Shown here: positions 3,486 to 47,078 of the stretch, in pieces
Layout: each line of letters starts with the position of its first letter
How positions within the stretch are numbered: the stretch's first letter is position 1
From: Antedon mediterranea
Taxonomy: Eukaryota > Echinodermata > Crinoidea > Comatulida > Antedonidae
DNA length: 64,000 bases
Assembly (NCBI RefSeq): GCF_964355755.1
Contig: NC_092677.1
Span: 687,001-751,000, forward strand
Reading direction: 5' to 3'
Notes under the pieces: model-generated
What the model saw: the letters and a program-made list of their open reading frames with translations, nothing else
Told to the model about the DNA's origin: nothing
Databases searched by the model: none
Program-made: the position numbers and the translations under genes

Positions 3486-3734
3486 CATGTATTTTAATTT
3501 TAGCTGAATACGTTGTTGATCCAATGATGTTAGTAACTGTCACATTAACAGTGCCAGATTCCGATACTTTCAGTGTAAATGTTGATCCATTGTTGACAGC
3601 ATCTTCATTTCCAGGAAGATCAGTAGACCACAGATAATTGACGTCAGGAGGATTAGTTGATACAGTTACAGATGTTATTGTATAAGTCTCACCAGGAGAA
3701 ACAATAAGATCATTTAATTTAAATTCAGGCGTAT
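3486..3734 (-). CDS. Gene A exon 4, Ig domain 3 without core cysteines
   Basis: 249 bases, phase 1-1, acceptor ctattttag and donor gtaaga. Contains VNYLWSTDLPGNED and FTLKVSE. The B- and F-strand cysteines are absent. Confidence 0.85.
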
Positions 3735-5069
3735 CTAAAATAGAAAATAAAAGTTGTTGATTATTTATATATAATTAATTTGTACCTAAATGTAGGTAAA
3801 TTATTGTTGGAAAAGTATAAAACCTTATTATTTTGTCCGGCCATGATTACATCCCGGAACGTTACTTAAACTATTTTTGTGTAAAACCCAAATGCAAACA
3901 TTAATGAATCCAATTACATGAATATTATTCCAAAAACATAAAATTATCATTGTATACTTACATTGTACCTCTAGGTTTCTAGAATCACTTTTCTGTTTGT
4001 TACCAGCACCATTATCCGCCTCGCACTCATAACTTCCATCATCAGTACGACTTACTGATGGAATTGTAAACAAACACGAACCATTGTGTGGTACGTCATC
4101 ATCTTTTATAAAGTTGAACATAGCTTCTGTACTAGAATCCACAACACATGTCATGAAAACTCCATCTCCTTCAGTTACAGGTGTCGTAAAGTTAATTACA
4201 GGTTTATCTAAATCTATAACATTTAAGAATAATCTATATTATTGTTGTCGTCGTTGTCGTCGTAACAATTTTAGAAATTAGTAGCACAAGCAATGTTGTT
4301 TAATATTTTATCAACATAATAAAATAACTTCATACAATTTTGAATAAATCCAGATGATTTTGAGTGCATTCACTTTGTAAAACCAGGCACTCACACCAGT
4401 TAATTTAGTTAATTCTTAATCTTAGTTTTATCTTTAAAAATCTCTCTCTTTTTATAATATTTTTAGTGGTAATGTTACAGTATACTCATACACATGACGT
4501 AAAAACAAAATGATTTACTTACAGTGAACAGTTAGTGTGCATATATCATCATCAGCTGATGGAATGTCTCCAACTAAAGTGACATCACATTGGTATGTGC
4601 CACTGTCACTTCTGAGAGTGTTGGTAATTACAAGAGTGATGTCATTTTCAACACTAAATTTGTCACTGTATCCAGGTTCTATTACACCAAATCCATTCTG
4701 ATAAATTGCTATTGTATCCGTTACACCATTGGTAACATTACTCCATCTAACAGTAGGAACAGCTCCACTGCTAGCTGGTACAATGTTACATGTTATTCTT
4801 GCTTCAGATCCTTCAGCTGCATCTACGTCATCAACTGTCACTGTTACTGCAACACATATTATGTCTAACCAAACTATATTAAAAACCATGAATAACGTCA
4901 TACTTTGCATCATATTTAAGACAGAAAAATTATATTTCAATTATTATATCTACTCTCAAATTGTTAGGTACTGTATTGCCAAAACTAACTTGAATTAAAG
5001 ACTAATATAGGTACAGTAAACCTTACCTGTGATACCAATGATGATATAGAAAATATCTTTTAATGTCAT
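3486..5069 (-). CDS. Gene A: three-Ig receptor-like protein, 3' part not found
   Basis: Spliced gene on the minus strand. Exons: 5067/5069 start codon to 5027 (signal peptide), 4846-4523 (Ig 1), 4207-3962 (Ig 2), 3734-3486 (Ig 3). All four have AG/GT borders and every junction is phase 1, as is usual for shuffled Ig exons, so the frame stays open throughout. Ig 1 has the Cys of ITC, the Trp of VRW and the Cys of YQC. Ig 2 has MTC and DGSYEC. Ig 3 keeps YLW but lacks both core cysteines. A good donor (gtaaga) follows Ig 3, so more exons are implied, yet no TM or tail exon was seen down to position 1. It may be soluble, decayed, or continue outside the window. It is the divergent sister of gene B. 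Confidence 0.8.
3962..4207 (-). CDS. Gene A exon 3, Ig domain 2
   Basis: 246 bases, phase 1-1, donor gtaagt. Contains FMTCVVD and DDGSYECEADNG. One codon shorter than gene B exon 3 (DDDVPHNG against DDDVLPHIG). Confidence 0.88.
4523..4846 (-). CDS. Gene A exon 2, Ig domain 1
   Basis: 324 bases, phase 1-1, acceptor ttgcag and donor gtaagt. V/I-type Ig with ITCNIV, VRWSN and SGTYQC. Same length as gene B exon 2. Confidence 0.88.
5027..5069 (-). CDS. Gene A exon 1, signal peptide
   Basis: 43 coding bases, MTLKDIFYIIIGIT plus one base, then donor gtaagg. Short hydrophobic leader. It has the same coding length and phase as gene C exon 1. Confidence 0.75.
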
Positions 5070-8442: not shown

Positions 8443-11400
8443 GTAAGTATAATTGAATAGGTTCCATTTTATTTCGTACTACTAGCCTACTCAATGTATT
8501 ATCTGGTAGTTTAAAACATAATTCTAATCAACAATGCTATAAGAACGACACAAAGATTCCATCACCATTTCATGCTTTATGCTTTTATAACCAAACTGAG
8601 TCAATTAATTCAGCTAAATGTTTAATTATCACCTAAAACTACGTAGATCTTTATAATTCTGTACATAGTAAATTTTATTGGAATTTTATATCGTCTTTAT
8701 TTATCAGTAAATTAAAAACCAAACCCACACATCATATTCCTTTTGGGAGGGTGAATATGTATATTAATTAAGTAAATTCTCTTTTATTTGATTTTATCTT
8801 GATATTTTTCATATTAATTAAATAAGTTTTCAGTTTATTATAATAGTCAAATACTACCTTACTTAATGTTTATTATAGGCCTATAAAAAATTGTATTTTG
8901 TATCCGTTCTGTATTTGCATGTTATCCCTCCTAATATTATTGTTATTATATTGGTAAATTAATGTTGCTGTTGGTTTAGGTTTTGAAATAAAACAAATAC
9001 ATAAATAAAAACATTTTCTTGTGGACCATATCACATTCTTAAAGTAAAAAAAACATTAATAGTTGAACCATTACATTTTTGTTTAACACAATTCAGCCTT
9101 ACGAAAATGTTCCGCAGTAACAGTGACTGTTGATGACGTAGATGTAGCTGAAGGATCTGAAGCAAGAATAACATGTAACATTGTACCAGCTAGCAGTGGA
9201 GCTGATCCTACTGTTAGATGGAGTAATGTTACCAATGGTGTAACGGATACAATAGCAACTTATCAGGGTGGATTTGGTGTAATAGAACCTGGATACAGTG
9301 ACAGATTTAGTGTTGAAAATGACATCACTCTTGTAATTGATAACACTCTCAGAAGTGACAGTGGCACATATGAATGTAGTGTCACTTTAGTTGGAGATAT
9401 TCCTGCAGATGATAATGATATATGCACCCTGACTGTTCACTGTAAGTAAATCGTTTTATTAGTACATGTGTATGCATACTGTAACATAACTAAATTACAA
9501 ACTGGGGTGGTTTGAAAAGTAAAAGGATACTCTCTTAATGTAAACGAGTGATATTTCCACTCCAAATTTAGAGTGAAATGATGTTCACTCTTGAATGAGT
9601 GTTAATCCACTCCAATTTGAGCGACTGCCATAATTATTAAGCATAAAACGTACCACTCCTTCAACGAGTGTGCATGTATTCCCGCTCGAACTGTAAACAC
9701 CCACCACTTGACTCCGGGAGTGAAAACTTTTGATCGAGTCAGCCAATCAAATGCAAGCATTTCATAACTTTTCATCGTCTTCGCCCGCGCCCAGGCCGGC
9801 CGATTGACTGTTTCTCTCTCTTTCTCCCGCCGCCGCATTCCAACGAGATGGAGGAATTTTTACACCAGATATTTGGTGAACAAGATCAACATTTAATCAG
9901 GATATTTAATGGTAAATTTACATTTAAAATGTAGCTTTTGTTACCGTGTATTGTAGAAATGATTATATTGTTTTGTAATATGTTTTATTTGCGTGTGAAT
10001 CCTGGTGTGCTAACGCCTAGCCTACTACTACTAGCTAGCCTAGCTAGGCCTAGTAGGAAGGGTGCTGGCAACGCGTACCCAAACCAACTCGTCCCCACCA
10101 TATGCTAACTCGTATCTAGCCTATAGGCGGACCCATACCCAAATTGTTTTGGCATGGGTACGGTACGACGAGTTGACCTGTCTTTATTGTTTTCACTTTA
10201 TTCAACCACTCTTTATTAATTATTATAGACCCGGCTAGGCTACACACATGATATTTACAAATTTCACTTATTATTAAAATAAAACGGTTTTTTTTGTGGC
10301 CGTAACGAACAATGCGCATAGGCCTAGGCCGGATGGCCCTCTGCTGCGGCCTTATTATTTACTAGGCCCAGGCCCTCCTAGGAGCCTGTTGTAGACCTAG
10401 CCTATTCTAGTAGGCCTAGGCCTAGGCCTATGCCTAGCTAGGCCTAGGCTAGGTAGCTAGGATACTAGGCCTATATTCTGAGAAATTTATGAGTAAAATT
10501 GTACTAATTTACTCATTCAACTTTACTTTGATTCTGTGAATCATTTCTCATAGGATATAAAATAAATATTTAACAAAATAAATTTCAGAAAATTTTAGGT
10601 TGATTAGCCTAGGCCCCTACAGTAGTAATATTTTCAATGTTTCAGATTAACTTGGAATTTGAACTGATGTATTCAGGATGCGGATTCAAAATGTTAATCA
10701 AATGGAAGCCATATTACCATCCCAAGTTTGTGCAGATGCATAAATCAAAACTCAGTAAGTTTATAAAGAGTGTTAATTCTTACCTGTTTTATTTAATAAC
10801 TTATTTACACTAATAGGAAGATGTTTTTCCCAACTCTGACGTAATGTGTACCGAATATTCAATACATTTGAAAACAATTGCGAAAAAATATGCAAGTTCT
10901 TGGGTGGAAATCCACAGCCTCCAGATCATCAGGCCTCTAGACCACCGAGCTTGCGCTGATGGCTGGGGTTGAATTCGAGCCCAAGTAAGCAGCAGGAACT
11001 GTACCAACGATGATAATTGTTGTTAATTGCGTAACAACAAAGTTTTTGCGTCAGGGAATACACTCTTCCCTGTTTATACATCGATATAAAACATTACATT
11101 GTAAAGTGTATTGATTGATTAAAACAAGCACGAATGTGCAATACTCGGGGTACAGCGAAAGAAGCTGTATACAGACGTATACAGTTAGAAAGTTAAAGAA
11201 AAATAGGTTTCGCCAGGGCTCGAACCGGGACCTTCTGCGTGTTAAGCAGACTTGACAACCACTACACTACGAAACCTCTTACATTGAAATTGTGGGTTAC
11301 AGAAAGTTTTTTAATCCATTTAAATTACAAATAAATGGTAATAAGCACAAAGCAAAATAAACATGTGTAAAAGTGATAATTACCGATTACACAAAATAAG

Positions 11401-14400
11401 TATTTTAAAAAATAATAATAAGATATACTGTGTATAATTATCATATTGCGTATACAGTACTTTTCACCATAAAGTTTAAAAAAAAAGGTTTAGCCCGGGC
11501 TCGAACCAGGTACCTTCTGCGTATTGAGCAAACGTGATAACCACTACGCCAAGAAGCCGCATATAACCATATAACTACATAACTCTGTGGTGTGTGTCAC
11601 ACATTGTGGATTCTTAATTAAACAAATTAATTAACAAAAAATTAAAAATCCGGCTCTATAGCTTTGAGGACATGTCCCTGTAGTATGTTCATGCCAAATC
11701 CCAGCTCAATACTACAACTAATAAGGGAGGAGTAGTACTTTAAAAATCGCACTTTTTACTCAATAGTGTCCAGATGGTGGAGGAGAAAATGAGTAAGTAC
11801 TAGACTCGGGTACCCCGAGTAAAAATATACAATAACCTTAGTAAATTTTAAATAAAAAGATGGTTTACAAAATGCTAAAAACAGAAACAAGCAATTACTG
11901 TAACTTTAAGTGCATTTACTGTTTTTGCAGATGATCTGGATGTGTTCAGAACAATTACCATCAATATCAAGAGGTGGGAAAAGCAAAGTCTACGATGCTT
12001 TTCATTACATTTTACAACACAAGCCAGTGAGTACTTGTTAAACGTTTTTATAATTCCATCATTAAATTGCAATAGATCTATACAAAATTTGTGTTTCATT
12101 CTTTGTAAAATACTCTTAGTATATGCAAATATTATATCTCAAAATTGAAACACAGTATGTGATTATACATTAAATGAGCCCCAATAAAATTTCATCTTCT
12201 CCTTTACTTCTCACAAGATTACTGTTGTATAAAATACCCTTTTCACAGCAGCATAATTTTGTATCTGGAGATCAAACCTGGTTAAAAACGATTTATTTTC
12301 TGCATACGTGGAAATGTGGAAGTTAAATAAGAAAAGAAGGAAGGCAACTGGGAAATGCCTTTAGCTCACACATTTTGTAAACTTGTAATGTGCAGTATAC
12401 CAAATTGAAATTTAAACCATCTGATCAAAAACAAGCGTGCATTGTTGATCAGTATATTGACAAGGTGATTAAAGATACAAAATTGTAGTGTTTATTATGT
12501 GATAAATAATAGACTAAAGTACGGAGGATTTGTGATAAATTTATATTTTTCAGCTTTTTATACTGTATTTTTATATTTTTCAGGCTGGGACAGATGTTGA
12601 CAGCTTTGCATCAGGAAAAGACCAGACTTATGCACAGCCATTTATCCTTGCATTGGGTGATGTTAAAGAACCTACAGAGTTTTTTTTATTATTGTTGATG
12701 CATTCCTGGTAGTAGCGCAATTTTTAAAATTCATTATAATTATATTTAATGTCCATTTGCCAGTCCGCTTGTGACCTTTTTCAATTTCTTTGAAGGTCTC
12801 TTATACGAAATTACAACAAACATCAAACCAACTGTTAGGGAGTTATATTCCCATCTTATTCGCGATGATGAGTAACTGTGATGAAATGTTTTTGATGAAT
12901 TAAATTACCTCTTAATTATGCATTATGTATAGAGAAGAGATTTGCTTTTCAAAATAAACAAATTAATATAGCTCAATGTCGGTTTCATTTATTTGGTTGT
13001 GCACAATTGTGTTTTAAATGCATGTTTTTAAGGCTACTACCAAGTTTGGGATCTCAGAAGCAGCCTTGCAGACAGAAGATACAAGTAGAACAAGAATATG
13101 CTAAAAATACCACTCCTAAAAAAGAGTGGTTTCCTTTCACTCTTTTATGAGTTGATTATTTTCACTCTTTTTGAAAGAGTGGGTCACTTTCACTCTTTTA
13201 TGAGTGTATTATTTCCACTCTTGTTTAAAGAGTGATGAAAATGTTCACTCTTTTTAGAGTTGGTTTCACTCACTTTAGAGTGATTTGGTGACCACTCTTT
13301 TTTTCACTCCAAAACGAGTTGTCCCTCAGTTAACTCTTTGAAAGAGTGGAAGTTCACTCTAGTTTGAGTGGTTTCTCACTCTTTTACATTAAGAGAGACA
13401 ACACGTTTATACTCCACTGAAATTCATCTGGATTCTTTCCTACCCCTGGAAAACGAAGAAGACGAAGAAGAAAAAGCAGACGACGACGACAACAACAATA
13501 ATATAGATTATTTCTTAAATGTTATAGATTTAGATAAACCTGTAATTATCTTTACGACACTTGTAACTGAAGGAGATAAAGTCGTCATGACCTGTGTTGT
13601 GGATTCTAGTCCAGAAGCTATGTGCAACTTTATAAAAGATGATGACGTACTACCACACATTGGTTCGTGTACATTTACAATTCCATCAGTAAGTCGTACT
13701 GATGATGGACGTTATGAGTGCGAGGCGGATAATGGTGTTGGTAACAAACAGAAAAGTGACAATAGAAACCTAGATGTACTATGTACGTATACAATGATAA
13801 TTTCATGTTTTTGGAATAATATTCATTTAGTTGGAGATTCATTAATGTTTGCATTTGGGATGTTCCGGGATGTAATCATGGCCGGACAAAATATAGGTTT
13901 TATACTTTTCCAACAATAATTTACCTACATTTAGGTATAAAAAATTAAGTATATAAAATCAACAACTTTTTTTTTTTTTCTATTTTAGATAAGCCTGAGG
14001 TTAATTTAAATGATCAGATTGTTTCTCCTGGTGAGACTTTTACAATAACATCTACTGTAACAGCTAATCCTTCTGATGTCACTTATCTATGGACTACTGA
14101 TCTTCCTGGAAATGAAGATGTAGTCAAGAATGGACCAACATTTACATTGAAAGTATCGGAATTAGAAGTTGATGGCACTGTTTATTTGGTTAATGTGACA
14201 ATTATGAACATCATTGGAACAACAACGGATTCAGCTAAACTTACAATATCTGGTAAGAATTTAAGTGAAATTAAAACTTTGAGGAATATGTTCGATTTAT
14301 TATCTACTGGATATAACTCTGAACTGTAATTATGATTTTGTACTATAACTCTCTAAGTTGTGATACCATACTATTTTATAGAATACATATCTATAATATA

Positions 14401-16611
14401 ATCTTAATTAATTTCCTGAAACGTAATTTTTTTACAATAGTAATAAAGCATGATATGAGTAATGAAATCTGATTGATGGACTTGTTATTGCAGGTACATA
14501 ATAGTGATTAACTTGTGATTTTTCTAAAACATAATTATAAATAAATTGTTAAGCATGTGATTGTCACGATTTGTTGCCCACATTTGGGTTGAAAACATAA
14601 TAGTACTATTATAGAATCATTATCCGTCGATCTAATGATTGTGCTAATTTATACCGTACTGTAATAACTATACAAAAGCAGTTATTCAGGAATCTGAAAA
14701 GTTTTAATTAATTAATTAATGATTAATGACATTGATCAAGATTATCTTTTAATTATCTAATATTTAATTATTTATTTTTCACTACTTTTATAATGAGTTC
14801 ATTATTTAATATTGAATAATACATTATGTCCATATTAATTCATGTCTTAAAATACAGAATAACAATTTATTTTTCTATGATTTATTGCCATGAAAAAAAA
14901 CCCCCAAAACTATTAAAAAGAATAATTAGGTTTTTAAGGAATACAAAAATCACAATACCGGTAAGCATTGTTAAATCAATTGCCACTGATTCTCTGAGTA
15001 TGTCTTCTTCACTTATCCGTTTAGATAATGTACATTTGCTTGTTTTGGCTGTATTTTTCAGTTACAAGCAGCATTAGATCAACGGTTTCAACAAATACCA
15101 CAATACTAATTACAGGTAAGCTTCGTTAATTATTTCAATTGAATTCATGTATGATACCAACCTTTCTTGTTAAAATCAAAACCCGAAGGAATTTATTTCC
15201 TTATTATTAAATTAGTATTCAAATCATTTAAAATGTCAAACTTTTTTAGTCTGAAGGACCCTGTTCCCGATATGTTCTAGTACTCTAGGCGTTGATTACA
15301 GTTCTGATGATGAGAAATGTATTCTCGAAACATGTCACGATTACGAGTTTTATTTTAATTAGGCCTATATAACATACTTACATGAGTTTTATCATACAAA
15401 TGGCAATGTGCTTACAACGACCAATTTCACAATATTGTACCAGATTTCGATAAACTGTAGGCCTACTTTGAAATTAATTTAAATATAACAAATGTTCTAT
15501 ACTATTTTTTTTTGTATTTTACTACTACATTTGATATTGAATTAACAAATGACCGAATTGATATATGCTAAAATAAATTAGTGAGATGTATGTATCACTT
15601 TTAGAGTCATGCAACAGTATTGGTCTGACCATTGGAATACTCTTTTTTGGCATCTTTATTGGTATCGTAGGATTGTATATTGGACAAATTATTCACAAAA
15701 AGATAAGGAAGGTTTGTTAATTGTTATGAAAACTTTACTTTAGTATTTTTATAATGCTACAAAACATGCAAACTTGTGACAATAATCGAAGACTCTCATG
15801 TGATACAAAGTAATATAATGGTAATGATTTCTAGTCAAATCTTTTGAAATAATTTACATGATGACATGATGGTTATTGTTGGTTTTCGATGAACACAATT
15901 TCTTTTCGAGGGAAAACGTATTCTATGATTTGCATCATTTTCCTTTAAAATATATTGAAATAAATAGAAAAATGAAAGGCATAGAGGATGACTACAGTAA
16001 TAACATAGTCCCCTAATTATTTCCATTTAGAAGTCGATGTCAAAGAAACAAAACGCAGACAAAAGGAAAGAAGATGTAAGTATTGATCTGTGAAATACAA
16101 TCTAAAGATGACAGACAAAACGATTCAAATAACATGATATATCACACTCATTGTTTAAAGAATAAACTAAATTAAAATGAGTGATTTAGTCTAATTTGAC
16201 TCCCGACTAAACGTACTGTTAAACTCTCTGGACCAAATAATTGTATTATTAAAAGATTTAATTGGTAGAACCATTGGAAAGAAAATTATTTTTTCTCATT
16301 AACGGCAAAATGGAAAATTCAAACTTAAATAGACCGGGTCTAATTTGATTCCGATTAAATGTAAGTCTACGTTTACAATTCCAATTTATTGTATTAAGAG
16401 TTTAGTACAATTCCTTTATTTGCCACAAGAAAAAATGGTTTCTGATTTAAGTTAACAATTATTTTCTTATTTACAGACTTACATGGATTATGTAGTAGAC
16501 CCTAGCCAGCAAAATCAAACCTATCAAGATTTACAATGCAGGCCTAACGAACAAGAATCGGCTTATGTTAATGTTAAGGCTGGAAATAAGAAAAAGAAAG
16601 CGAAAATATGA
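8394..16611 (+). CDS. Gene B: three-Ig transmembrane receptor with tyrosine-motif tail
   Basis: Predicted cell-surface receptor. Exons: 8394-8442 (candidate leader), 9118-9441, 13534-13782, 13989-14252 (Ig 1-3), 15062-15115 (Ser/Thr stalk), 15605-15711 (TM), 16031-16075 (basic linker), 16477-16611 (tail and stop). Phases chain correctly: 1 up to the TM exon, then 0. The TM segment is about 25 residues (IGLTIGILFFGIFIGIVG and on) followed by HKKIRK. The tail has TYQDL and, 10 residues after YQDL, SAYVNV. The latter fits the ITIM consensus (S/I/V/L-x-Y-x-x-I/V/L) and the Grb2 SH2 pattern YxN. Intron 2 holds a 3.9 kb transposon. A lectin, adhesion or immune role is not shown by sequence; ligand unknown. 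The first exon is the least certain part. Confidence 0.83.
9118..9441 (+). CDS. Gene B exon 2, Ig domain 1
   Basis: 324 bases, phase 1-1, acceptor ccgcag and donor gtaagt. Contains ITCNIV, VRWSN and SGTYECSV. Differs from gene A exon 2 mainly at amino-acid-changing sites. Confidence 0.88.
9776..9840 (+). promoter_or_regulatory. GC/CpG-rich patch before the transposon ORF start
   Basis: A short CpG-rich stretch (cccgcgcccaggccggccg and nearby) in very AT-rich surroundings, directly upstream of the ATG at 9848. A promoter of the element's own gene is a reasonable guess. Confidence 0.35.
10317..10480. repeat. AGGCCTAG-rich palindromic cluster
   Basis: Dense run of overlapping TAGGCCTA, CTAGGCC and GCTAGC words. 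Low-complexity and self-complementary; lies inside the 3.9 kb transposon. Confidence 0.6.
10817..11060 (-). repeat. tRNA-derived SINE, copy 1
   Basis: Minus-strand tRNA-like head (reverse of the block ending CCACCGAGCTTGCGCTGATG) and a body with the reverse of GATGTTTTTCCCAACTCTGAC. The same family as 43081-43318 and 43327-43462; the B-box region is damaged here. Confidence 0.65.
11206..11276 (-). tRNA. tRNA-Val(AAC)-like sequence
   Basis: Minus strand, 71 bases. Acceptor arms GGTTTCG and CGAAACC pair fully. The anticodon stem TCTGC/GCAGA encloses loop TTAACAC (anticodon AAC), and the T loop is GGTTCGA with one mismatch in the stem. The D arm GTAGTGTAGTGGTT is typical of tRNA-Val. It lies inside repeat R2, so it may be a tRNA-derived copy and not a working gene. 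Confidence 0.5.
11487..11558 (-). pseudogene. Degenerate tRNA-like sequence
   Basis: Resembles the copy at 11206-11276 (GCGTAGTGGTTATCACG, GGTTCGAGCC), but the acceptor arms mispair and base 33 is C, so it is unlikely to be functional. Confidence 0.5.
13534..13782 (+). CDS. Gene B exon 3, Ig domain 2
   Basis: 249 bases, phase 1-1, donor gtacgt. Contains VMTCVVD and DDGRYECEADNG. Extra cysteines in AMCNF and GSCTF could form a second disulphide; gene A keeps only the second of them. Confidence 0.87.
13989..14252 (+). CDS. Gene B exon 4, Ig domain 3 without core cysteines
   Basis: 264 bases, phase 1-1, donor gtaaga. YLWTTDLPGNED is retained, but the usual Ig cysteine positions hold other residues. 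Five codons longer than the gene A counterpart. Confidence 0.85.
15062..15115 (+). CDS. Gene B exon 5, stalk
   Basis: 54 bases, phase 1-1: VTSSIRSTVSTNTTILIT. Ser/Thr-rich, typical of an O-glycosylated membrane-proximal stalk. Confidence 0.7.
15605..15711 (+). CDS. Gene B exon 6, transmembrane segment
   Basis: 107 bases, phase 1-0, acceptor ttttag and donor gtttgt. ESCNS, then a long hydrophobic run, then HKKIRK (stop-transfer). The NTGL/NSIGL-type start is shared with gene C. Confidence 0.82.
16031..16075 (+). CDS. Gene B exon 7, basic juxtamembrane linker
   Basis: 45 bases, phase 0-0: KSMSKKQNADKRKED, acceptor atttag and donor gtaagt. Confidence 0.72.
16477..16611 (+). CDS. Gene B exon 8, cytoplasmic tail with tyrosine motifs
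   Basis: Phase 0 acceptor tttacag, ending in TGA. Contains TYMDYVVD, NQTYQDLQ and ESAYVNVKAG, then a lysine-rich end (GNKKKKAKI). YQDL and YVNV are 10 residues apart, within ITAM-like spacing, though the last position is V and not I/L. Confidence 0.8.
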   Translation, partial: TYMDYVVDPSQQNQTYQDLQCRPNEQESAYVNVKAGNKKKKAKI

Positions 16612-18489: not shown

Positions 18490-18496
<7 letters not shown>

Positions 18497-20354: not shown

Positions 20355-20397
20355 ATGTACATTGTTTGCTTGTTGTCCTGTATTATCTCAGTTTTTG
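20355..20397 (+). CDS. Gene C exon 1, signal peptide
   Basis: MYIVCLLSCIISVF plus one base, donor gtaagt, phase 1. Hydrophobic leader of the same coding length as gene A exon 1. Confidence 0.82.
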
Positions 20398-34038: not shown

Positions 34039-34167
34039 TTAGACATCAGTAGGGTATAACTCAACCGCACTATCTTTTCTCTTTTTCTTCTTTCTTTTCT
34101 TTTTTGGTTGATCATCATCAATTGGGTGAACTTTATTAGATGGATGTGTAATGGATGGCGCTGGTTG
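34039..34167 (-). other. In-frame open extension after gene D stop
   Basis: Reads QPAPSITHPSNKVHPIDDD, then a lysine/arginine run (KKKRKKKKRKD), then SAVELYPTDV and TAA. It could be former coding sequence beyond a CGA-to-TGA change, a readthrough extension, or chance. A minus-strand AATAAA lies about 65 bases further on. Confidence 0.5.
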
Positions 34168-34311
34168 TCAGATTCTAGTGGGTTGTTGTTGGATGCTAGC
34201 ATATGTCGTTTCTGGATCAGGGTGGTTGATCTCGTTGCTTGCACCTTTTGGCAAACCTCGTGTCAGATCCAAATCTGCATATTGTAGTTCTTCAACATTT
34301 CTTAACCGCTT
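34168..34311 (-). CDS. Gene D last exon with LQYADL and TTYASI
   Basis: Acceptor ttatag, phase 0. KRLRNVEELQYADLDL, GASNEINHPDPETTYASIQ, then PTRI and TGA. After the TGA the same frame stays open for 42 codons to TAA at 34039-34041. Confidence 0.8.
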   Translation of the reverse strand, partial: KRLRNVEELQYADLDLTRGLPKGASNEINHPDPETTYASIQQQPTRI

Positions 34312-37300
34312 CTATAAAAATAAAGGCGTTTACAATTAATAAGAATGTACTGGTTACTAAAAAAAACATAAATTAACACATTAAAGAAAACATAAATTGG
34401 ATAAAAATACACACAGAAAACAATAATAGAAAATAGACAATGGAAAATGGTAATTTTTGTTCGTTCAGCTGGGCACCTTACCTTTGGAATCTTTTACCTC
34501 ATTTATGTTTGCTAATCTTAATGTTTTCCAATCTTCAAATTTAAACTCATTTAGAACTAATTTGAAATCATTTTCGCATTAATCAGGATAATTTGTTCAC
34601 TGCGCTTTTGATGTTTGAATTTTTTCTACTTATTATTAATACTATGATAAAATAAAAAGTGTCTCTAAAAGATAAGACATTTAAAAAGAAAATAGCTAAT
34701 AGAATAGCTTTAGAAAAGATAACAAAGAATCCCATATTGTTAATACAAGCATACAGTAATACTGTTTGTGCCAGTCACTAATAACACCATGTATAGGAAA
34801 TAACCACAATGAAGAGTATGGGATACTAAAATGTTTTACTCAATTTACCATTATTTTAATATTCATATTACAGTGTAATGGCCATGTGTATATTATACAC
34901 CAAATGAAACAATATTATTTTTGGTAAGCAATATCACCACTATGTATAGGTAATAATCACAAGGAGGAGAAAAAAATCATCATACATAATTCCTTCTGAA
35001 ATTGCCTACAGTATGGTGGCCCATAAGCTCATGGTAATATTATTTTGCTCACAGCAATATCAATTTTACTCACAAAAATATCAATTTGTTAATGAACCCA
35101 TGGGTCACCGTAATTGACAGGCATTCATCTGTTTTTTTTCTCCAACATTTATTCATTTTCAACCATTTTTCTGGGTATTAAGTCTTAGACTTAAATGTTA
35201 AAATCTAAGTCTGTTTGTAGTATTCCAGTTCAATTAATGAAAATAATTGAAAAATAATCCAATAATCTATTTTATAATTTTATAAACATAGGGAAAGTGT
35301 CTTTATTTACAAAATACACAATGGCTACCAACAAAGCTAGGTTACTTCAGCGGAAGACAAACAACAGCTAATGAGAAATTACGGCAAAAATTGGGAAAGA
35401 AAAATAATTGCAATGCCATCCAGCAAGAGTAGTTGTTTGTGTAGACAAGAACTTATCTTGGAAGTTAAGTTGTAAACCCCAATCTTATTCAATTAGTTTA
35501 CTTAAATTCTCCGTCCCTGGACTAAAAAATTTGCGTATTTGGTCAAATTTTCTCCTTTAACTTAAATGTTTTCTTTTGTTTTACTTAATATTTAAGTACA
35601 GCTTAAACAGAACCATCAAGTCTTTATTTTTTGTATTGGGTAAATCAAATGCTATTCATTTATGAGTTGGATTACTTAAATAAAAAATGTATCTTATATT
35701 CTAATCTATACATGGCTGCTTGCTTCAAGTTTCAGTTACTGCTACTAAAAATAAAAAAAATAACAATATCTGAAAATAAAAATAAATTTTACTATTTTTC
35801 TATGTAAATCATTTTTTTCAAAATGACTGCGCTGCAATTGCATAAAAAAATATTTTTAAATTGCATTTTGTTACCTAATACCAATGCTATTCGGTAATTA
35901 TCAAATCATAAAATAAGATATTTTTCAATTGTAAGAAAACAAAAAAATTGCTGTAAAGAAAAAAACAAATACAAATTAACTATGGTATCTAAAATTTGAT
36001 GCTAAACAATTTTTGAATTAAAATTTGATTGAGTTAGTTATATTACAGTATTTAACAATCTTATTTGTTGATCATGTTGAAATCTCAAGAACCAATCACA
36101 TGCATCAAAAACAATCTCAGGCAAATCATTGGCTGTAAGTATAAATTCAAATTTGAATCAACGAATTAGAGAAGAGAATTGTTATGACATCACTATGCAA
36201 CATGCATCAAATGTGACATCATCATCAAGTCATTATATCATGCTTTAACCAACATACTATGTTAGTTAGGTTCCATTTTACTCTATTCCATGGTACACAA
36301 TATAAAATCATTTCTCTAGTGGATGTCTTCTTGACGAATACTTTAATTTCTTCTTTATAAAACCAATCTTAGAAGAATTTGAATAAACAAAAACGGAAAA
36401 ACATATTACATCAACAGATTAGCATAATATGGGATTGGAAAAAAGTTGTTTATTTTTAATTAATTAGTGCCACACAATGGTGCAACAACAGTTTTAATAC
36501 CACTACCATATACTGTACTACAGTTTATCTGAGAAAGAAAGTTAATGATGTAAAACAACAATAATCATTTTTATATAAATGTACCACTTTTCTCTTCTAA
36601 TATTTCTCATATCTTTAATACGTATCCTAACAGGATGGTTTATTGTTAATGTCTAATGTGATGGACTTAAGTCTACTCTTAACTCTCTTGCTGAATAACA
36701 ACATGGTGGACATGCTTAAACTAAATTAAAGTAAATATAGATTACCAATATCATCACAATTTGTTATACCTGTTCAAAATAAAATACATGATCAGCATTA
36801 ACATAGAAAAACACAATCTATAGTTAAGCTACATGTGATTATAGGGCAGAATATATCTAGAATAATGATTTTTTATTTTATAATCATGCTTTATAGCATT
36901 TTAATTGTGAACAACATATTGACATTATACTTATAATCATTCAATTTTATGATTTTGTGTGTATAACATGATGAATGTATTCTTAATACACTAAGGTTTC
37001 TGAAGTCTAACAGTCTTAAAATACCCCTTTTACTGTACTTACATCAACTTGTGCTGGGCGGTCAGATTTCTTTGTTTTGTCCATGTCAAGTTCACTAGGG
37101 TCCTTTTCAGGTTCAACTTGTTTCTTTTTCTTGTCTTTTAAGTTGACCTCTGTGTAAAGGTCACCACCTTTTGCTTTGTATCTTTGTGTATTTCCTTCTT
37201 CCATTTCAATGGCAGGTTCAACATTTGATTTGTTCTTTTTTCTGGAGAACATAAAATAAAGACATACGTTACACAGCATATGTAAATACGTGAACGTGAT

Positions 37301-40300
37301 TGATCGAAATGGCATCACATTATTACAGATAATTTGAGGATCGAAAATTTTCATATTTCTCTTTCAGGTAATATAACATTTTATATTGACTGGTCAATTT
37401 AACACACACATCCAGTGACATTGACGGTTTTGAACTTTGGTCAAAACTACAGTGACATTATCTACGAAAATGGACATACTGTACTGTAGTATTAGACAGA
37501 ATTATTGTTACTAGATGGTACGCTCGCTTCGCTCGCGTACCATCTAGGTTGTGCCCACAGATGGTTCTCGAATACACAGTAATTTCAGCGTAACAAAAAT
37601 GGCGATTTCAAATGTACGTACCACAGGACTATAATACATTGTCGTTTACAGAAACGAATAAATAGAAACGATGATTTATGTAGTCAACTAAAATTAGCAC
37701 CCTGGGAATTACTTCCGAAGGAGAAACTTATCACAAAATGAGTCCAAATTTTTGATTTGGACTCATTTAAAGAAACCCAATTTGTGTTTTGTATGTAACA
37801 TTAGGGTTGAGGGATGGGAAAGCGGATAGGTACAAAGAGGAACAATTTTTAAATATATTCTTTATCCACTCAGTAACGAAATATTTTTTTCATGTTTTAT
37901 AGGCCTATAAATAATATACCTCTAAATACAGTAAAACGTTTGCGATTTAATACTTTGTTAAAACTGTCACTGTCATAATCGATTGAAATATTTAAGTACA
38001 TGTCACAATACACCATACGACGTTTATATTTTTGGTAATTATTAATTAATACAAACGTTGAGAAGGAACTGTCAGTATAAAGTTTATTTGTATATAATAA
38101 TGTGTTTTATATATCTAACAGTAGAGCCTATCCACAATCTCAGTAATAAAGTTTATTTGTATATATTTTTATATTACATCTAACAGTACGAACATTCACA
38201 GTAAGAAATGTTCGATTCAAATGAGGACCAAAAATAGTTAATAGGTATTTACAGTATTGTCAAAGTATTGTAAGTTTATTCTCAAAGGGCCCATATATTT
38301 ACCTACCGTATGTGTTAAACCAAGGGCTCATAAATTCACCTACTTGTGTTAAACCAAACTCTGGCAGACTGAGAGATTGGGATGTTCCATTCATCGCAAA
38401 TCAATACATTTGTATTATACAGATATTGACTGCTTAGAGGTTAAATATAAGATTTGACATCCCAGAGGGAATGATATTAAGTTCGAGGGAATATATATTT
38501 CCCGAAGCGCCACCGATATAAAAGGCAATATCTGTTATATATAGCCAAGAACAGTCTGCTGGGTTGGGTGAAGCTAGGCCTCCTATTTGTATTGTATTTA
38601 AACAAGCCTGCCTAGACACCTTACCTTGCGAAGAATAATATACAGATAATTACTAATTAATGATTCCTTGGCAATAAAATATTCACTTAGGCCTAGGTCG
38701 TTTAAATTCAAAGAAGAATTTCCATCAATAAGCCTATTATAATAATATTATAATCAGGTAGGCCGAATAAACAACTCGTCTTCTTCTCGATCTTCGAGGA
38801 GGAGCCGAATCACCGGATGTTCAGCGCGTACTAGTTACTAGGTTACTACCGTGAGTATTGACCAATCACAAACGGTGTTTCATCACATTTAGGGTGGACT
38901 TATAACAAATGAGGGCGCTATGTATGCATAGCTTAAATAGTTTAGAAGATTAATTTCTTCAAGCAAATTCCGTGGCGCAGCGGTTGAAGCTTTGTCTTGT
39001 GATGGAGTGACAATTGCATCGCAAATTCAAGACCAGTAGATGACTTTTGTTTATTTATCGGCAAACGCGAGTGTTGCACAAGAAAATTAAACAGTCAATA
39101 TCATCGTACTCGAGAATTTATATGATTAATGACAGGGGACACGATAATTACGCGAAAATTACACAGTCAATATCATCGTTCTCGAGGATATATACGATTT
39201 ACGATCCTCGCAGCAGTAGTCATGTGATGCAGTTTCAACCAATCACGTTCGCGTATTTACATAGGCTATGTAATATAATCGTATATTAAATCTATCAAAA
39301 TAGTATTTTTTAAAGAAAATCGGCCTGTCTTCAACATTATGATGATGTTCAACCGGTTTTCAGCTATTAAAAACAATTATCGTAGGAGGAAATAGGAAAA
39401 TGCGAAGTCTCCTCGCATTTTTGTGGCGGGTATTTTTCAAGATGGACATCCATTAGACAGTGTATACCACGATCGGAAAACACCCCTATTTGGGGCAAAT
39501 CGTTGAACCTAAATTCGTTTTAATCGTCAATAACTAATTATCTAACTTAATTTAATTAGTAAACAGGGTTACATCAGGTGGTTAAAATCAGTACCGAAAG
39601 TACGAACCAACTTTATATACCATCGAGTAAAAATTCTAGAAGTAAGGCGCGATTTACCGAATTTTGCCCTTACGTATTAAATTTATATATAGATACTGTA
39701 AACAACAACTTTAGTGGCATCTTCTAATCCCCTAATACAGTATTTTATTTTATACTTTTCTATATATTTATTTCCACACACATCAGCAATAAACATGACT
39801 TTATCAATTACAGTAAGTCTTGTATGAGGCTGTGGCAGTATGATAAGCCAGAGGCAGGATTTGAGCCACAGACCCATAAGCAAACATACTGTGGTTGTAG
39901 TAATATTCCACATTTTCACTGCTGATTATTCCATATTCTATAATCCTTACATTATTTCAAACTATTTACCATCTCGTATGCCTTTGTTGTATATTTCTTT
40001 TGTTAAACCTAAGGATATATTTTTTGCATTTAGCCAAATCTTATTGGATGGCTACTCGACTGATGCATTGTGGAAAAAGGACAGACTAAAATGTAGTTAA
40101 AGCTGATGGTTTATAAACTAAATATATACTCACGAACTTGACTTTGCATTCTTGCTGGCTGTTTAAAATAATTACAAAATGTAATCAAAACTTTTTCAAA
40201 TGAATAAGATTACAAGATCCTTGTCATGTGTACATTCTTAGATAATGACATGACAAGATCTTGGTTCTCATGACTACATTCTTTAGAAGAGATATCAGAA

Positions 40301-43300
40301 AACATTGATTCTGCCTTTTAAAATACATTTTGTTTTTATGGTTAAAATAAATAAAAAGTATTACTGATAAAATAAATAGTTTCCCTCTGATAGACATTGG
40401 GGAGTTCTTATATTGATTATTCAATGAAACAGTTTTATGACAATAAGAAAATGGTTGTAATGGTGTTTGGTATCAAATGATATGTCAGATTATGACATAA
40501 ATTAAGTTTCTAATGATGTGGCTATCAAGATAAATTATAATAACTAGATGGCACGCTCGCTTCGCTCGCGTACCATCTAGGTCGTGCCCACAGATGGTTC
40601 TCGAATACACAGTATTTCCAGCGAGAAAAAAATGGAGATTTCAAATGTACGTACCGCAGGACTATAATACATTGTCGTTTACAGAAACGAATAAATATAC
40701 ACAATGATTTATGTAGTCAACCAAAATTAGCACCCTGGGAATTACTTCCGAGAGAGAAACAAAATGAGTCAAATTTTTTTATTTGGACTCATTTAAACAA
40801 ACCCAATTTGTGTTTTGTATGTAACATTAAGGGTTGAGGGATGGGGGAAGAAGATAGGTACAAAGAGGAAACATTTTAAAATATATTCTTATCCACTCAG
40901 TAACGAAATATTGTTTTTAATGTTTTATAGGCCTATAAATAATATACCACTAAATACAGTAAAACATTTACGATTTAATACGGTACTTTGTTAAAACTCT
41001 CACTGTCATAGTCGATTGAAATAGTAAAGTACATGTAACGATACACCACTACGACGTTTATATATTTTTAAATTATTAATTAATACAAACGTTGAGAAGC
41101 AACTGTCAGTAATAACGTTTATTTATTTGTATATTATATGTTTATAATCTAACAGTAGGGCCTACCCACACTCACAGTAATAAAGTTTATTTGTATATAT
41201 TTTTATATTACATCTAACAGTACCAACACTCACAGTAAGAAATTTGCGATTCAAATTGCGATCAAAAGTGGTTAATACCTTAACAGTATTGTACAGCATT
41301 GCAATACTATTTATGTTTATTCTCCAAGGGGGCCCATAAATCTAAATCTATACCTCTATGGTTAAACCAAATAATTTGGAATGTTTATTTGTATATTATA
41401 TGTTTATAATCTAACAGTAGGGCCTACCCACACTCACAGTAATAAAGTTTATTTGTATATATTTTTATATTACATCTAACAGTACCAACACTCACAGTAA
41501 GAAATTTGCGATTCAAATTGCGATCAAAAGTGGTTTTAACCATTAAAATACCTTAACAGTATTGTACAGCCAGGGAACTCCCTGGTACAGCATTGCAATA
41601 CTATTTATGTTTATTCTCCAAGGGGGCCCATAAATCTAAATCTATACCTGTATGGTTAAACCAAATAATTTGGAATGTTCCATTCATCACAAATCAATAC
41701 ATTTGTAAAAACGTATATTAAATGTATCAAAATAGTATTTTTTAAAGAAAATCAGCCTGTCTTCAACATTATGATGCTGTACTCGAACTGTTCAACCGGT
41801 TTTCAGCTATTAAAAACAATTATCGTAGGAGGAGATAGGAAAATGCGAAGCCTCCTCGCATTTTTGTGGCGGGTATTTTTCAAGATGGACATCCATTAGA
41901 CAGTGTATACCACGATCGGAAAACACCCCTATTTGGGGCAAATCGTTGAACCTAAATTCGTTTTAATCGTCAATAACTAATTATCTAACTTAATTTAATT
42001 AGTAAACAGGGTTACATCAGGTGGTTAAAATCAGTACCGAAAGTACGAACCAACTTTATATACCATCGAGTAAAAATTCTAGAAGTAAGGCGCGATTTAC
42101 CGAATTTTGCCCTTACGTAAATTTATATATAGATGAAACAACGATACTTACCATTAGTAACTGTAAATTTTACATGGAAACTGAGAACTTTTAAACTGGT
42201 TTTCATTTCACAGCAATAGTGACCATCATCATCCTCTTTCACCTTTGGTATCTTCAGAGAACCATCGTCAGCAACCGTGAATCTAGAATTAGCATCTCCA
42301 GAACGAACTATGAACTTTTTGTTTCCTCCTTTCTTGTCACATTTATGCCAATCAAAGTGTTCCACTATCTCTCCTGTTGCAAGTGTGTAATCGATTTGCA
42401 AACAACTGTCAGTAGAAATTTCTGCCTTTGCTAGCTTAACCTTAAAGCTTTATTGAACAAAAAGATAAGATAAAATTATCAAAATGTTTAGTATATAGCA
42501 TCAGACATAACAAAATACTATTTTTTGAGCGGAATTTTTACACCTTACCCCACAATGAATCAGTTTAGTTCCATTATTGTAATTAACCTACTAATGTCTT
42601 GTTTTGAATTTGCTTATTTGAGGCTGGTGAATAAATACTAGTAAATGTAAATCTTTACTAATATTTTCTTCTCATTATTCAATGTACTGCATACAATTCC
42701 AAACGTTTGTGGAAATAAGGAATAAACTGAAACAGAATGATCATAAATAAATATACTTACGAACTTGACTTTCCAGTTTTGTTACCTGTATAAAAGCAAT
42801 AGTAAAATAGTAGAAATATGACTCAGAATGAACACAAATAAACTATGACATTGGACAATAGATTATAGATGATGATTAGAGAAATGGTGGTGGATTTAGG
42901 TGGTAATAAATGATGCCAATATCAATGAAAGTTCAAATTGGAACAAGAATAGTGTGAGAATCTTGATAGTTGCCACACTGTGGCTGCCATGTGTTCAAAC
43001 ACACCACACATACCTTTCCAGAAATGGAGGAAGATTAATTTTACATTTACAATGATTAAAATAATGACAATAATAACTTTAATTAGATGTTTTTGCCCTA
43101 ATCTGACATAATTTGTACTTTATACTAAGTACATTTGAGAATACTTCTTCGCAAGTAGTTCTCGGGTGGGACTCGAACCCACAACCTCCAGATCACTAGC
43201 CTGGCGTTCATACCTCTAGACCACCGAGCTTGCGCTGATGGCTAGTGGTTAGAATCGAGCCCAAGTAAGCAGCGGGTACTACACCAACAGGATTGTAATT

Positions 43301-46300: not shown

Positions 46301-47078
46301 CATGTACTGTGTAGACATCATCATCTCTCCTCTGAAACCACCACACGAGTGCCCTCACGATGTGTTGCGACGTGTATGTTGCCTATACACGAGGTGTAGA
46401 GTATCGGAAAATTAAACTTATATACTTAGTGTGTGTCATTTATCGTAGAATATATTATTTTAAACGTCAATTGAACAAGAATTTATCAAGCAGAAAAGCA
46501 AGTATACAGTTTTCGTTAGATAGAAATGTATCAAAGAAATTTAATAAGCCTGTTTATGGCAGCCAATACCAAATAGGGGTTTCCTGTTTTGGCGACTTGT
46601 GATTCGAGCGTAGTGTGTGCAGCGATTTTCGCCCACGACTAAGTGTAAACAAAACAGGACCAATAGGCCTGATATGGACTAGCTTATATTAGCCTAGCTT
46701 TGTTATAATATGCGGTGTATGGAAGTCGCCAGACAGGTCGACCATCACAAAATTAATACGCGCCCTTACCAAATACAAAATAATGTATTACGGCACCTAC
46801 TGTAGATCTTCGAATTAATGGGTGGGCTTATACCCGAGTGCCTGATTTTGCATGAAAATTAGTCAAAAGTCGGGGGTGGGCTTTTACCTGAGTTTGGGCT
46901 TATAGCCGCGTCAGTACGGTAATACAAAAATTATTTTATCTTTTTTTAAACTCCCAATGCTATAAAAACAAGATTCTTTACTTACTTATTGTTACACAGG
47001 CTACAACACTACAGACAATGATAAAACCAAGAATAGCTCCAATGATGATTAAGGCTATTTCCCAATCTTCAAATCGGC
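34168..47078 (-). CDS. Gene D: membrane receptor with ITIM/ITSM-like tail (3' part)
   Basis: Minus-strand exons: 47078-46986 (TM), 44723-44699 (25 nt), 43603-43518, then either 42785-42761 or 40158-40134 (both 25 nt), 37241-37043 and 34311-34168 (ending TGA). The phase chain 1-2-1-2-0 closes exactly when one of the two duplicate microexons is used. The tail is long and charged, with GDLYTEVNL, EELQYADLDL (ITIM consensus LxYxxL) and ETTYASIQ (ITSM consensus TxYxxI). The ectodomain is not settled: an EGF exon lies at 58 kb and an Ig exon at 42.4 kb, in the middle of the tail exons. Likely binds SH2 proteins such as phosphatases when phosphorylated (inference from motif families). Confidence 0.75.
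34312..37042. other. Gene D last intron, nothing recognised
   Basis: Very AT-rich, with no exon or defined repeat seen. Confidence 0.5.
37043..37241 (-). CDS. Gene D tail exon with GDLYTEV
   Basis: 199 bases, phase 2 to 0, acceptor ctccag and donor gtaagt. KKNKSNVEPAIEMEEG, GGDLYTEVNLKDKKKK and SELDMDKTKKSDRPAQ. Highly charged. Confidence 0.8.
37511..39693 (-). mobile_element. Helitron-type element H2 in gene D intron
   Basis: Inverse orientation to H1: TC end at 39693 after an A (minus strand), CTAG palindrome end at 37511 before a T. Shares the block around ATGGACATCCATTAGACAGT with H1, H3 and H4. Carries extra sequence at 38.4-39.3 kb, including a possible tRNA-like stretch (GTGGCGCAGCGGTTGAAG). 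Confidence 0.75.
40134..40158 (-). CDS. Gene D 25-nt microexon 2b
   Basis: Flanked by aacag and gtgagt, phase 1 to 2, encodes ASKNAKSS. Shares AAAGTCAAGTTCGT-AGTATA with 2a. Including both would break the frame of the next exon. Confidence 0.65.
40544..42133 (-). mobile_element. Helitron-type element H3 next to Ig exon donor
   Basis: Minus orientation, TC end at 42133 (A before it), CTAG at 40544 (T after it), terminal palindrome present. Contains a tandem duplication of about 265 bp (from about 41119 and 41384). The second copy carries the small palindromic insertion at 41572. Confidence 0.76.
41572..41592. repeat. 14-bp palindrome with 7-bp duplication
   Basis: GTACAGC, CAGGGAACTCCCTG, GTACAGC. 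The first internal copy of H3 has the uninterrupted site TATTGTACAGCATTGCAATA, so the insertion is directly visible. Confidence 0.75.
42152..42430 (-). CDS. Ig-domain exon inside gene D tail region
   Basis: Phase 1-1, acceptor gctag and donor gtaagt. KAEISTDSCLQIDY, HFDWHKCD, SRFTVADDGSLKI and DDDGHYCCE form a V-like Ig domain with extra cysteines. It follows the TM exon in gene order, so it cannot simply be ectodomain of the same transcript. It may start another gene or an alternative transcript. A Helitron begins just past its donor. Confidence 0.78.
42761..42785 (-). CDS. Gene D 25-nt microexon 2a
   Basis: Flanked by tacag and gtaagt, phase 1 to 2, encodes GNKTGKSS. Its 3' half and its donor region match microexon 2b. 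Confidence 0.65.
43081..43318 (-). repeat. tRNA-derived SINE, copy 2
   Basis: The minus-strand head holds a tRNA-like box GTGGGTTCGAGTCCCACC and an A-box-like TGGTCTAGAGG. The body ends with the inverse of GATGTTTTTGCCCTAATCTG. Confidence 0.75.
43327..43462 (-). repeat. tRNA-derived SINE, copy 3, truncated
   Basis: Same family placed head-to-tail with copy 2, broken off inside the tRNA-like head after the inverse of CACTAGCCTGGCG. Confidence 0.75.
43518..43603 (-). CDS. Gene D acidic tail exon
   Basis: 86 bases, phase 2 to 1, acceptor gatttag and donor gtaaat. KIVEGEDQDDGSNQHG then SENISLASPTGS. Confidence 0.72.
44018..44483. mobile_element. MITE with CCTTTCACACCAAAAC ends
   Basis: The left end CCCCTTTCACACCAAAACTC and the inverse at the right (AAAACTCCGGAG inverse, GGTGTGAAAG) form imperfect inverted repeats. 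Interior repeats of CTCTGGAG/CTCCGGAG. Non-coding; class not determined. Confidence 0.6.
44699..44723 (-). CDS. Gene D 25-nt microexon 1
   Basis: Flanked by atcag and gtgagt, phase 1 to 2. With the TM exon it reads KCWNNKHI and joins the next exon in frame. Confidence 0.65.
45042..45713. mobile_element. Dispersed element, ACCTCCGCCAAGGAGG type
   Basis: Starts ACCTCCGCCAAGGAGGTA, followed by GTTTGTTTGTTAGCAAGATT, and ends GGTGGAGGTATGCACTCTCG. The edges are inverse. I recall this start from many invertebrate and fish genomes; class uncertain. Confidence 0.5.
46192..46917. mobile_element. MITE with TACTGAC-CGGCTATAAGCCC ends
   Basis: Left TACTGACACGGCTATAAGCC and right inverse GGCTTATAGCCGCGTCAGTA. 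More GGGCTTATACC blocks lie inside. Pattern typical of pogo/Tc2-like MITEs (from memory). Confidence 0.62.
46986..47078 (-). CDS. Gene D TM exon
   Basis: 93 bases, phase 1-1, acceptor atatag and donor gtaagt. RFEDWE then ALIIIGAILGFIIVCSVVAC, a clear membrane segment. Confidence 0.82.

Follow-up and report, generated by a model that had tools for sequence, protein, structure and literature searches.

A tandem cluster of immunoglobulin-superfamily receptor genes with two candidate classes of tyrosine tail in the crinoid Antedon mediterranea

Background

Clusters of immunoglobulin (Ig) receptors with tails of the immunoreceptor tyrosine-based inhibitory motif (ITIM) or activation motif (ITAM) type are reported from two invertebrate self-recognition systems, one in a tunicate and one in a hydroid (PMC12065747). 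The fester co-receptors (FcoR) of the Botryllus schlosseri fuhc locus comprise 53 loci and combine a V-Ig domain, a sushi domain, two C2 Ig domains and a long tail; ITIM and hemITAM tails occur together in the family, and homologues of Syk, SHP-1 and Grb2 are reported in Botryllus (PMC12065747). The Alr family of Hydractinia symbiolongicarpus has 41 genes (PMC11999971), which are clustered V-set/I-set Ig receptors with ITAM/ITIM motifs on candidates and a reported role in allorecognition (PMC11999971, PMC12065747). Here we describe a group of Ig receptor genes, named A to D, in a stretch of 64,000 nucleotides from the crinoid Antedon mediterranea (RefSeq assembly GCF_964355755.1, contig NC_092677.1, here called C8), and compare it with these systems. 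The whole stretch, C8:687001-751000, is referred to as the window, and positions within it are counted from its first letter. A search of the literature on invertebrate and echinoderm ITIM/ITAM Ig receptors, crinoid immune genes and Alr, with subscription papers mostly outside its coverage, returned the Botryllus and Hydractinia work and reviews, none of them naming this cluster.

Results

A receptor cluster larger than the window

The window (GC ~32%) sits within a ~1.1 Mb cluster of Ig receptors on C8, with relatives on C7. Gene B, used as a query against the genome (354 Mb, 18 contigs), matched 93 exons. The majority fall on C8 at 0.47-1.63 Mb, some are on C7 at 15.69-15.71 Mb, and weaker matches lie on other contigs, mainly C3. 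The receptor cluster is genuine, and it is bigger than the window and than was first claimed in an earlier reading of these letters made with no database searches (the sequence-only reading). Judging from the sequences described below, we think it probable, with some reservation, that the window belongs to a tandem cluster of type I receptors of the Ig superfamily, whose tails are of two opposed kinds: a B type that would be activating, and a D type, pairing an ITIM with an immunoreceptor tyrosine-based switch motif (ITSM), that would recruit SHP2 to damp.

The sequence-only reading had named four tyrosine motifs in genes B, C and D, all of which are present: SAYVNV at 16558-16575 (+), SAYEIV at 25629-25646 (+), LQYADL at 34270-34287 (-) and TTYASI at 34192-34209 (-). 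A generic ITIM pattern matches the six frames of the window 602 times (486 when stops inside the motif are disallowed), so the bare pattern was dropped as stand-alone evidence and the tails are to be judged by splicing and conservation. They rise above chance because they are conserved in paralogues: within the same genome, this holds for both the B-type and the D-type tails. With this conservation, and given that the genome encodes orthologues of SHP2 and Syk, the proposal that an invertebrate has clustered Ig receptors bearing tyrosine tails is borne out. Its ITIM/ITSM reading of the individual tails fared unevenly, holding for gene D, failing to describe the tails of the gene B class, and failing for gene C, whose tail exon is unreachable in frame by an ordinary splice. 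A Pfam search of the Ig exons found V-set and Ig_3 domains in B and C, and clear Ig domains in D3, a D-type gene outside the window.

Gene B and the B-type tails

The seven exons of gene B join in one open frame that encodes a V-Ig domain, two further Ig domains, a stalk, a transmembrane (TM) segment, a cytoplasmic segment and the tail, with AG acceptors throughout and GT donors up to the tail (Table 1). At the level of the gene model, the claimed link between this tail and an Ig ectodomain is upheld, with phases that match from the Ig exons through the TM exon to the tail. The V domain is confidently predicted to adopt a V-type fold (mean predicted local distance difference test score, pLDDT, 91.2; 11 sequences). 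Its best 50 structural matches include TIGIT, CRIg, nectin-1, 2B4, PD-1 and an amphioxus V domain; the likeness to immune receptors is not specific, because the aggrecan G1 domain ranks first and many of the matches are antibody domains. Directly 3' of gene B, at ~16901-17320, a head-to-tail repeat of four copies with a unit of ~105 bases was seen by eye.

A genome search with one B-type tail recovered 65 such exons, all on the + strand (64 on C8 at 0.62-1.60 Mb and one on C7), and all were fetched and read. The first tyrosine motif is present in every one, as YxxL/I in 64, and YMxY occurs in 60. Three tails stop ahead of the second tyrosine; the remaining 62 (61 on C8, one on C7) all read YxN at that site, with V, I or L at +3 in 61. 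The second tyrosine follows the first motif at a gap of 8 residues in 13 tails, 9 in 47 and 10 in 2. An ITAM follows the rule YxxL/I-x6-12-YxxL/I, and the 8-10 spacing agrees with it in 62 of 62 tails, as does the L/I of the first motif in 64 of 65; the second motif is mostly YxxV. The ITIM pattern S/I/V/L-x-Y-x-x-I/V/L fits 13 of the 62 second-tyrosine sites, gene B's included, and does not fit them as a class.

The SH2 domain of Grb2 prefers pY-E/V/Q/K-N-V/I/L, with N at +2 essential, and the yVNV sites of LAT are listed with GRB2 and GADS-family ligands (PMC3694890). A YxN motif in the tail of membrane immunoglobulin recruits Grb2 and amplifies signalling (PMC5844867). At the sequence level, the B-type tails conform to this Grb2-type site (Y-x-N with a hydrophobic residue at +3), as found in LAT and in the immunoglobulin tail tyrosine (ITT) motif. 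Given the invariant N, and a YxxL placed 8-10 residues upstream, an activating or adaptor-docking tail with ITAM-like spacing and a Grb2-type YVNV fits these exons better than an inhibitory one.

The two tyrosine motifs are more constrained than the spacers beside them. Measured as the ratio of nonsynonymous to synonymous differences per site (pN/pS), YQDLQ gives 0.05 over 65 tails and YVNV 0.16 over 62, whereas the adjoining spacers give 0.63 (60 tails) and 0.44 (62 tails). Pooled pairwise ratios of nonsynonymous to synonymous substitution (dN/dS) are 0.45 for Ig1 (8 sequences), 0.48 for Ig2 (8), 0.59 for Ig3 (9), 0.40 for the TM exon (11), 0.74 for the juxtamembrane exon (10) and 0.27 for the tail (11), the lowest of the six exons; the sequence sets differ between exons and related pairs are pooled, so these values are descriptive.

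Ig1, Ig2, Ig3, TM, juxtamembrane and tail exons occur in order in four genes (B, L001b, L002 and L003a). Exon starts in the relatives were taken from the gene B boundaries; AG stands at the boundary in all 8 Ig2, all 10 juxtamembrane and all 11 tail exons, and exactly at the homology-derived start in 3 of 8 Ig1, 6 of 9 Ig3 and 3 of 11 TM exons. Two donors as drawn, those of the L014 TM exon and the C7 Ig3 exon, are not GT. Of 13 further tails read together with ~1.2 kb of upstream sequence, 12 are preceded by a TM exon, L080 being the exception, and one is also present in L027. Signs of decay in the family are seen as well, with frame-shifted or split V-Ig exons in L013 at 4791-5109 (C7:15.698 Mb) and in L017 at 680-2331 (C8:609-610 kb).

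Gene D and the D-type tails

As had been claimed, gene D has its own TM exon, which runs in frame to the tail. Its TM, linker, Ig, linker, cytoplasmic and tail exons have six AG acceptors, with GT donors on the first five, and form one open frame both with and without the Ig exon and the second linker. The TM exon lies 5' of that Ig exon, an unusual order; the Ig exon is therefore not the gene D ectodomain and might be an alternatively skipped cassette. An exon at ~43.5-43.6 kb (-), first taken as part of D, was dropped; it is out of frame after the TM exon, and no counterpart was seen in D2. A second gene, D2 (C8:553 kb), has the same order of TM, linker, Ig, linker, cytoplasmic and tail exons, and D compared with D2 gives dN/dS values of 0.54 (Ig), 0.51 (cytoplasmic) and 0.48 (tail).

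Six D-type tail exons were found, all on the - strand: those of D, D2, D3 (1074.7 kb), D4 (1049.2 kb) and D6 (1095.2 kb), and a relic in the window at ~31145-31251. Four of the six (D, D2, D3 and D6) keep both ITIM and ITSM in frame, with the tyrosines 26, 27, 23 and 23 residues apart; D4 and the relic are frame-broken. By its sequence, the tail of gene D is a genuine ITIM and ITSM pair. Only in D3, the cleanest of these genes and a nearly complete one, does the gene model connect such a tail, by way of a TM exon, with an Ig ectodomain: signal, V, V, I, stalk and TM exons join in phase, and after them come a candidate linker of 28 nt, a cytoplasmic exon and the ITIM+ITSM tail.

Upstream of the D2 TM exon lie a Thr-rich exon and seven Cys-rich, EGF-like exons, and farther upstream are three B-type Ig exons (L005). 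Of three EGF-like/Cys-rich exons of D2 run in Pfam, two were above the EGF cut-off and one just short of it. The EGF-like exon that probably belongs to the gene D ectodomain (57959-58089) is 58% and 76% identical to two of those in D2, and its Pfam EGF_2 match (E 3e-4) is just under the cut-off. Beyond the window, on the same strand and upstream of D, are four Ig exons (L008). Their order and phase suggest that the L008 and L005 Ig exons belong to D and D2. Within the presumed span of gene D, at 48786-52207 (-), a 919-aa open frame followed by a 223-aa frame is retrotransposon-like, with a reverse-transcriptase (YADD) part.

Shared V domains and signalling partners

The V exon upstream of D (L008) is 96.3% identical to that of the B-type L009, and the V exon upstream of D2 (L005) is 92.5% identical to that of the B-type L001b and, equally, to that of L003b. 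L003b has V, Ig and Ig exons; neither the remainder of L003 nor L028, as far as C8:671.7 kb, contained a B-type TM exon or tail for it. Such close identity between V exons that lie upstream of opposed tail classes suggests paired receptors, in which D and D2, if spliced as proposed, would share near-identical V domains with B-type genes. The paired-receptor-like layout of the sequence-only reading gains support to that extent.

An SHP-type phosphatase, proposed as a check on the reading, is present: an SHP2 orthologue on C3 consists of a tandem-SH2 locus followed by protein tyrosine phosphatase (PTP) exons and matches PTPN11 with an E of 4e-100. Syk-type pieces lie on C6, where the best SH2 match is SYK (E 1.5e-37); the kinase piece has a first match labelled EGFR (E 3.5e-63), then ZAP-70 and SYK (~1e-46 to 1e-45). 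Many tandem PTP exons, which look like expanded PTP clusters, were seen on C5 at 7.6-8.1 Mb and on C6 at 26.3-26.4 Mb. C3 also holds tandem arrays of Ig-like genes at 11.85-11.90 and 18.57-18.91 Mb, many of them single open frames of ~450-510 aa with weak matches to B and C.

Genes C and A

The Ig and TM exons of gene C read through in frame, as proposed, and the further join to the SAYEIV tail fails: the TM exon ends in phase 1, the tail exon requires phase 0, and there are stops between them with no direct in-frame splice. In the paralogues C2 and C3 (L019, L020) the juxtamembrane exon ends in GAC followed by GTAAGT and so bridges the phases, whereas in the homologous exon of gene C an A-rich insertion brings an in-frame TAA TAA ahead of any donor. 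A simple filter on donor and polypyrimidine tract rejected all 18 paths with one intermediate exon, and this route to the tail was dropped; a non-canonical path might still reach it. With the juxtamembrane exon reaching these stops and no path passing the filter, the SAYEIV tail is probably not translated from the present assembly. The tails of C2 and C3 read HYDDL and then AYHSV, with a gap of 8, and the C-terminus of C2 is frame-shifted relative to that of C3. A C-type gene (+) stands tail-to-tail with a D-type tail exon (-) in three places: in the window (20355-25652 with 31145-34311), in L019 and in L020.

Gene A has three Ig exons and a signal-peptide exon; translation might alternatively begin at a start codon at ~4901 that is in frame with, and continuous with, the Ig exon. 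No homologous TM exon or tail was found in the 9.5 kb downstream (3.5 kb of the window plus L024), where six hydrophobic open stretches (one in the window, five in L024) are unlike the TM segment of gene B. Gene A may be a secreted form or a fragment.

Table 1. Exons assigned to genes A to D in the window
Gene	Feature	Position	Strand	Splice sites and phase	Other evidence
A	signal-peptide exon	5027..5069	-	ATG start; GTAAGG donor	hydrophobic; 81% match in L005
A	V-set Ig exon	4523..4846	-	AG/GT	90% identical to B
A	Ig exon	3962..4213	-	AG/GT	
A	Ig exon	3486..3734	-	AG/GT	
B	V-set Ig exon	9118..9441	+	AG/GT, phase 1-1	V-set by Pfam within B (E 8e-14); V fold predicted (mean pLDDT 91.2)
B	I-type Ig exon	13528..13782	+	AG/GT, phase 1-1	Pfam Ig_3
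B	third Ig-like domain exon	13989..14252	+	AG/GT, phase 1-1	
B	short stalk exon	15062..15115	+	AG/GT, phase 1-1	no paralogue match among loci compared
B	transmembrane exon	15605..15711	+	AG/GT, ends phase 0	homologues in 10 other genes
B	juxtamembrane exon	16031..16075	+	AG/GT	AG and GT present in all 9 homologues
B	tail exon (YMDY, YQDL, YVNV, stop)	16477..16611	+	AG acceptor	1 of 65 such exons in the genome
C	signal-peptide exon	20355..20397	+	ATG start; GTAAGT donor, phase 1	hydrophobic
C	V-set Ig exon	20663..21007	+	AG/GT	Pfam V-set E 9e-15 within C
C	Ig exon	21428..21709	+	AG/GT	Pfam Ig_3
C	short Ig-like exon	22062..22280	+	AG/GT	89-93% identical in three paralogues
C	transmembrane exon	24868..25002	+	AG/GT, ends phase 1	homologous in C2/C3
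C	juxtamembrane exon reaching in-frame TAA, then A-rich repeat insertion	25323..25354	+		aligned to C2/C3, which have a donor there
C	tail exon (YDLQ..SAYEIV), probably untranslated	25566..25652	+	no direct join	unreachable in frame by ordinary splice
D	EGF-like exon, probable ectodomain	57959..58089	-	AG/GT, ends phase 0	out of step with TM exon
D	transmembrane exon	46986..47078	-	AG/GT, phase 1-1	
D	linker exon, 25 nt	42761..42785	-	AG/GT, phase 1-2	analogues in D2 and, as candidate, D3
D	Ig exon, 3' of TM exon	42152..42447	-	AG/GT, phase 2-1	61% identical in D2, same place
D	second linker exon, 25 nt	40134..40158	-	AG/GT, phase 1-2	analogue in D2
D	cytoplasmic exon with DLYTEVNL	37043..37241	-	AG/GT, phase 2-0	conserved in D2
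D	tail exon (ITIM LQYADL, ITSM TTYASI, stop)	34168..34311	-	AG acceptor, in-frame join	conserved in D2; motifs kept in D3, D6
D type	second tail exon (relic)	~31145-31251	-		sequence reading; frame broken between the two motifs

Discussion

Proposed mechanism and alternatives

In ITAM signalling a Src-type kinase acts first and then Syk. Beginning from the observed exons, splice phases, tail conservation and SHP2 and Syk genes, we infer a scheme in which ligand binding would lead a Src-type kinase to phosphorylate the B-type tail, whose YVNV could then dock a Grb2/GADS-type adaptor. The YxxL/YxN pair might engage Syk too, giving an activating signal, and the ITIM and ITSM of a D-type receptor would recruit SHP2 and damp it. 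Cells might integrate the two kinds of signal, and the role of the cluster would be in immune or self/non-self recognition.

Several points weigh against this scheme. The gene models come from genomic DNA alone, by splice sites, phases and paralogue comparison, and no convincing signal exon for gene B was found in the 4 kb upstream. Exon starts had to be shifted to an in-phase AG in 8 of 11 TM, 5 of 8 Ig1 and 3 of 9 Ig3 exons of the gene B family, all by 15 nt or less (TM by 6 nt or less). The B-type tails were found by similarity to a motif-bearing tail, and the frame of 53 of them was picked partly by these motifs, which favours conserved copies. Constraint extends to the four residues after YVNV (pN/pS 0.23, 61 tails), and the YMxY value of 0.14 is taken over the 60 tails having the motif, the other 5 being dropped. 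The second B-type motif ends mostly in V, as against the L/I of a textbook ITAM, so the tail is ITAM-like and not a strict ITAM. Upstream V exons in L008 and L005 are joined to D and D2 by order and phase only, D2 has seven Cys-rich exons against the one found in D, which ends out of phase, and some C-type and D-type copies are broken.

Three other explanations deserve attention. In the first, all tails are inhibitory ITIM tails, as the sequence-only reading implied, and work through SHP2 alone, which would account for the 13 second-tyrosine sites, gene B's among them, that read S/I/V/L-x-Y-x-x-V/I/L, and for the SHP2 orthologue. We find it quite improbable, given that the other 49 of the 62 sites fall outside the ITIM pattern and that N at +2, which ITIMs do not require, is invariant in all 62. 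Alternatively, these genes could be an Ig family of cell adhesion or development, similar to nectin, sidestep or Robo, with ordinary adaptor sites and without an immune or self-recognition role. In the PDB the V profile matches Robo2, CEA and contactin best, and the other matches include nectins, MPZL1 and sidestep as well as pIgR and PD-1; D and D2 have EGF-like exons, and growth-factor pathways use Grb2 sites. Nevertheless, the family is a large tandem expansion with broken copies and opposed tail classes, and V domains are apparently common to both classes; such features typify paired immune receptors and would be unusual in an adhesion family. The best 50 V folds also include TIGIT, CRIg and 2B4, even if that likeness is unspecific (aggrecan first, antibody domains too). 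An adhesion family is on this evidence unlikely.

The remaining alternative concerns the D-type genes, of which D and D2 could be decaying mosaics of EGF, TM, Ig and tail exons from different genes, leaving only D3-like copies as functional ITIM receptors. The Ig exon 3' of the TM exon in both genes, the out-of-phase EGF-like exon of D, the retrotransposon-like frame inside its presumed span and the broken frames of D4 and of the 31 kb tail would all be explained. D and D2 nonetheless share exon order and open frames, the TM-to-tail exons of D join in one frame, and the dN/dS values between the two genes are 0.54, 0.51 and 0.48 for the Ig, cytoplasmic and tail exons. We regard such mosaics as somewhat unlikely, and activating B-type tails opposed by SHP2-recruiting D-type tails remains the reading that we favour.

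Comparison with known systems

Like the Botryllus FcoR, the genes described here form an invertebrate family of type I Ig receptors with a V-type Ig domain first and with both ITIM and activating-type tails (PMC12065747). They differ in that gene B has a V-Ig and two Ig domains (three in some relatives) and a short YxxL/YVNV tail. B, C and D3 give no Pfam match to a sushi domain, so the cluster is not FcoR. The tail-to-tail arrangement of C-type and D-type genes brings to mind the adjacent FF/FcoR pairs of Botryllus (PMC12065747). The likeness to the Hydractinia Alr genes, also clustered invertebrate V-set/I-set Ig receptors, is one of description (PMC11999971). By inference, the cluster would work like the FcoR and Alr systems.

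Among vertebrate receptors, PD-1 and SIRP-alpha carry an ITIM with an ITSM, and the D-type tails resemble theirs in having L-x-Y-x-x-L/V followed 23-27 residues on by T-x-Y-x-x-I/V, with an SHP2 orthologue in the genome. Unlike them, D and D2 have an Ig exon between the TM exon and the tail, and D2 has EGF-like and Thr-rich exons upstream. The mixture, with most tails looking activating and a few inhibitory, resembles the receptor clusters of human natural killer cells. The B-type YxN core is that of the yVNV sites of LAT and the ITT of membrane IgG and IgE, which dock Grb2-family SH2 domains (PMC3694890, PMC5844867); here it lies in the receptor's own tail, 8-10 residues past a YxxL, in 62 tail exons. 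LAT is said to be missing from ascidians (PMC12065747).

A bolder and less likely reading is that this is a paired-receptor complex which evolved independently of those in vertebrates, tunicates and hydroids. Dozens of receptors would then bear a built-in LAT-like Grb2/GADS site and share V domains with a few receptors of the ITIM/ITSM class encoded on the opposite strand, and the complex could serve allorecognition, or act in the manner of natural killer cells, in an animal that is not known to possess such a system. Whether such logic arises repeatedly would be tested by a further cluster this large or larger, in which a near-uniform tail of activating type is set against an ITIM/ITSM class and V domains appear to be shared; it would also offer a system in which a docking site like that of LAT is built into the receptor.

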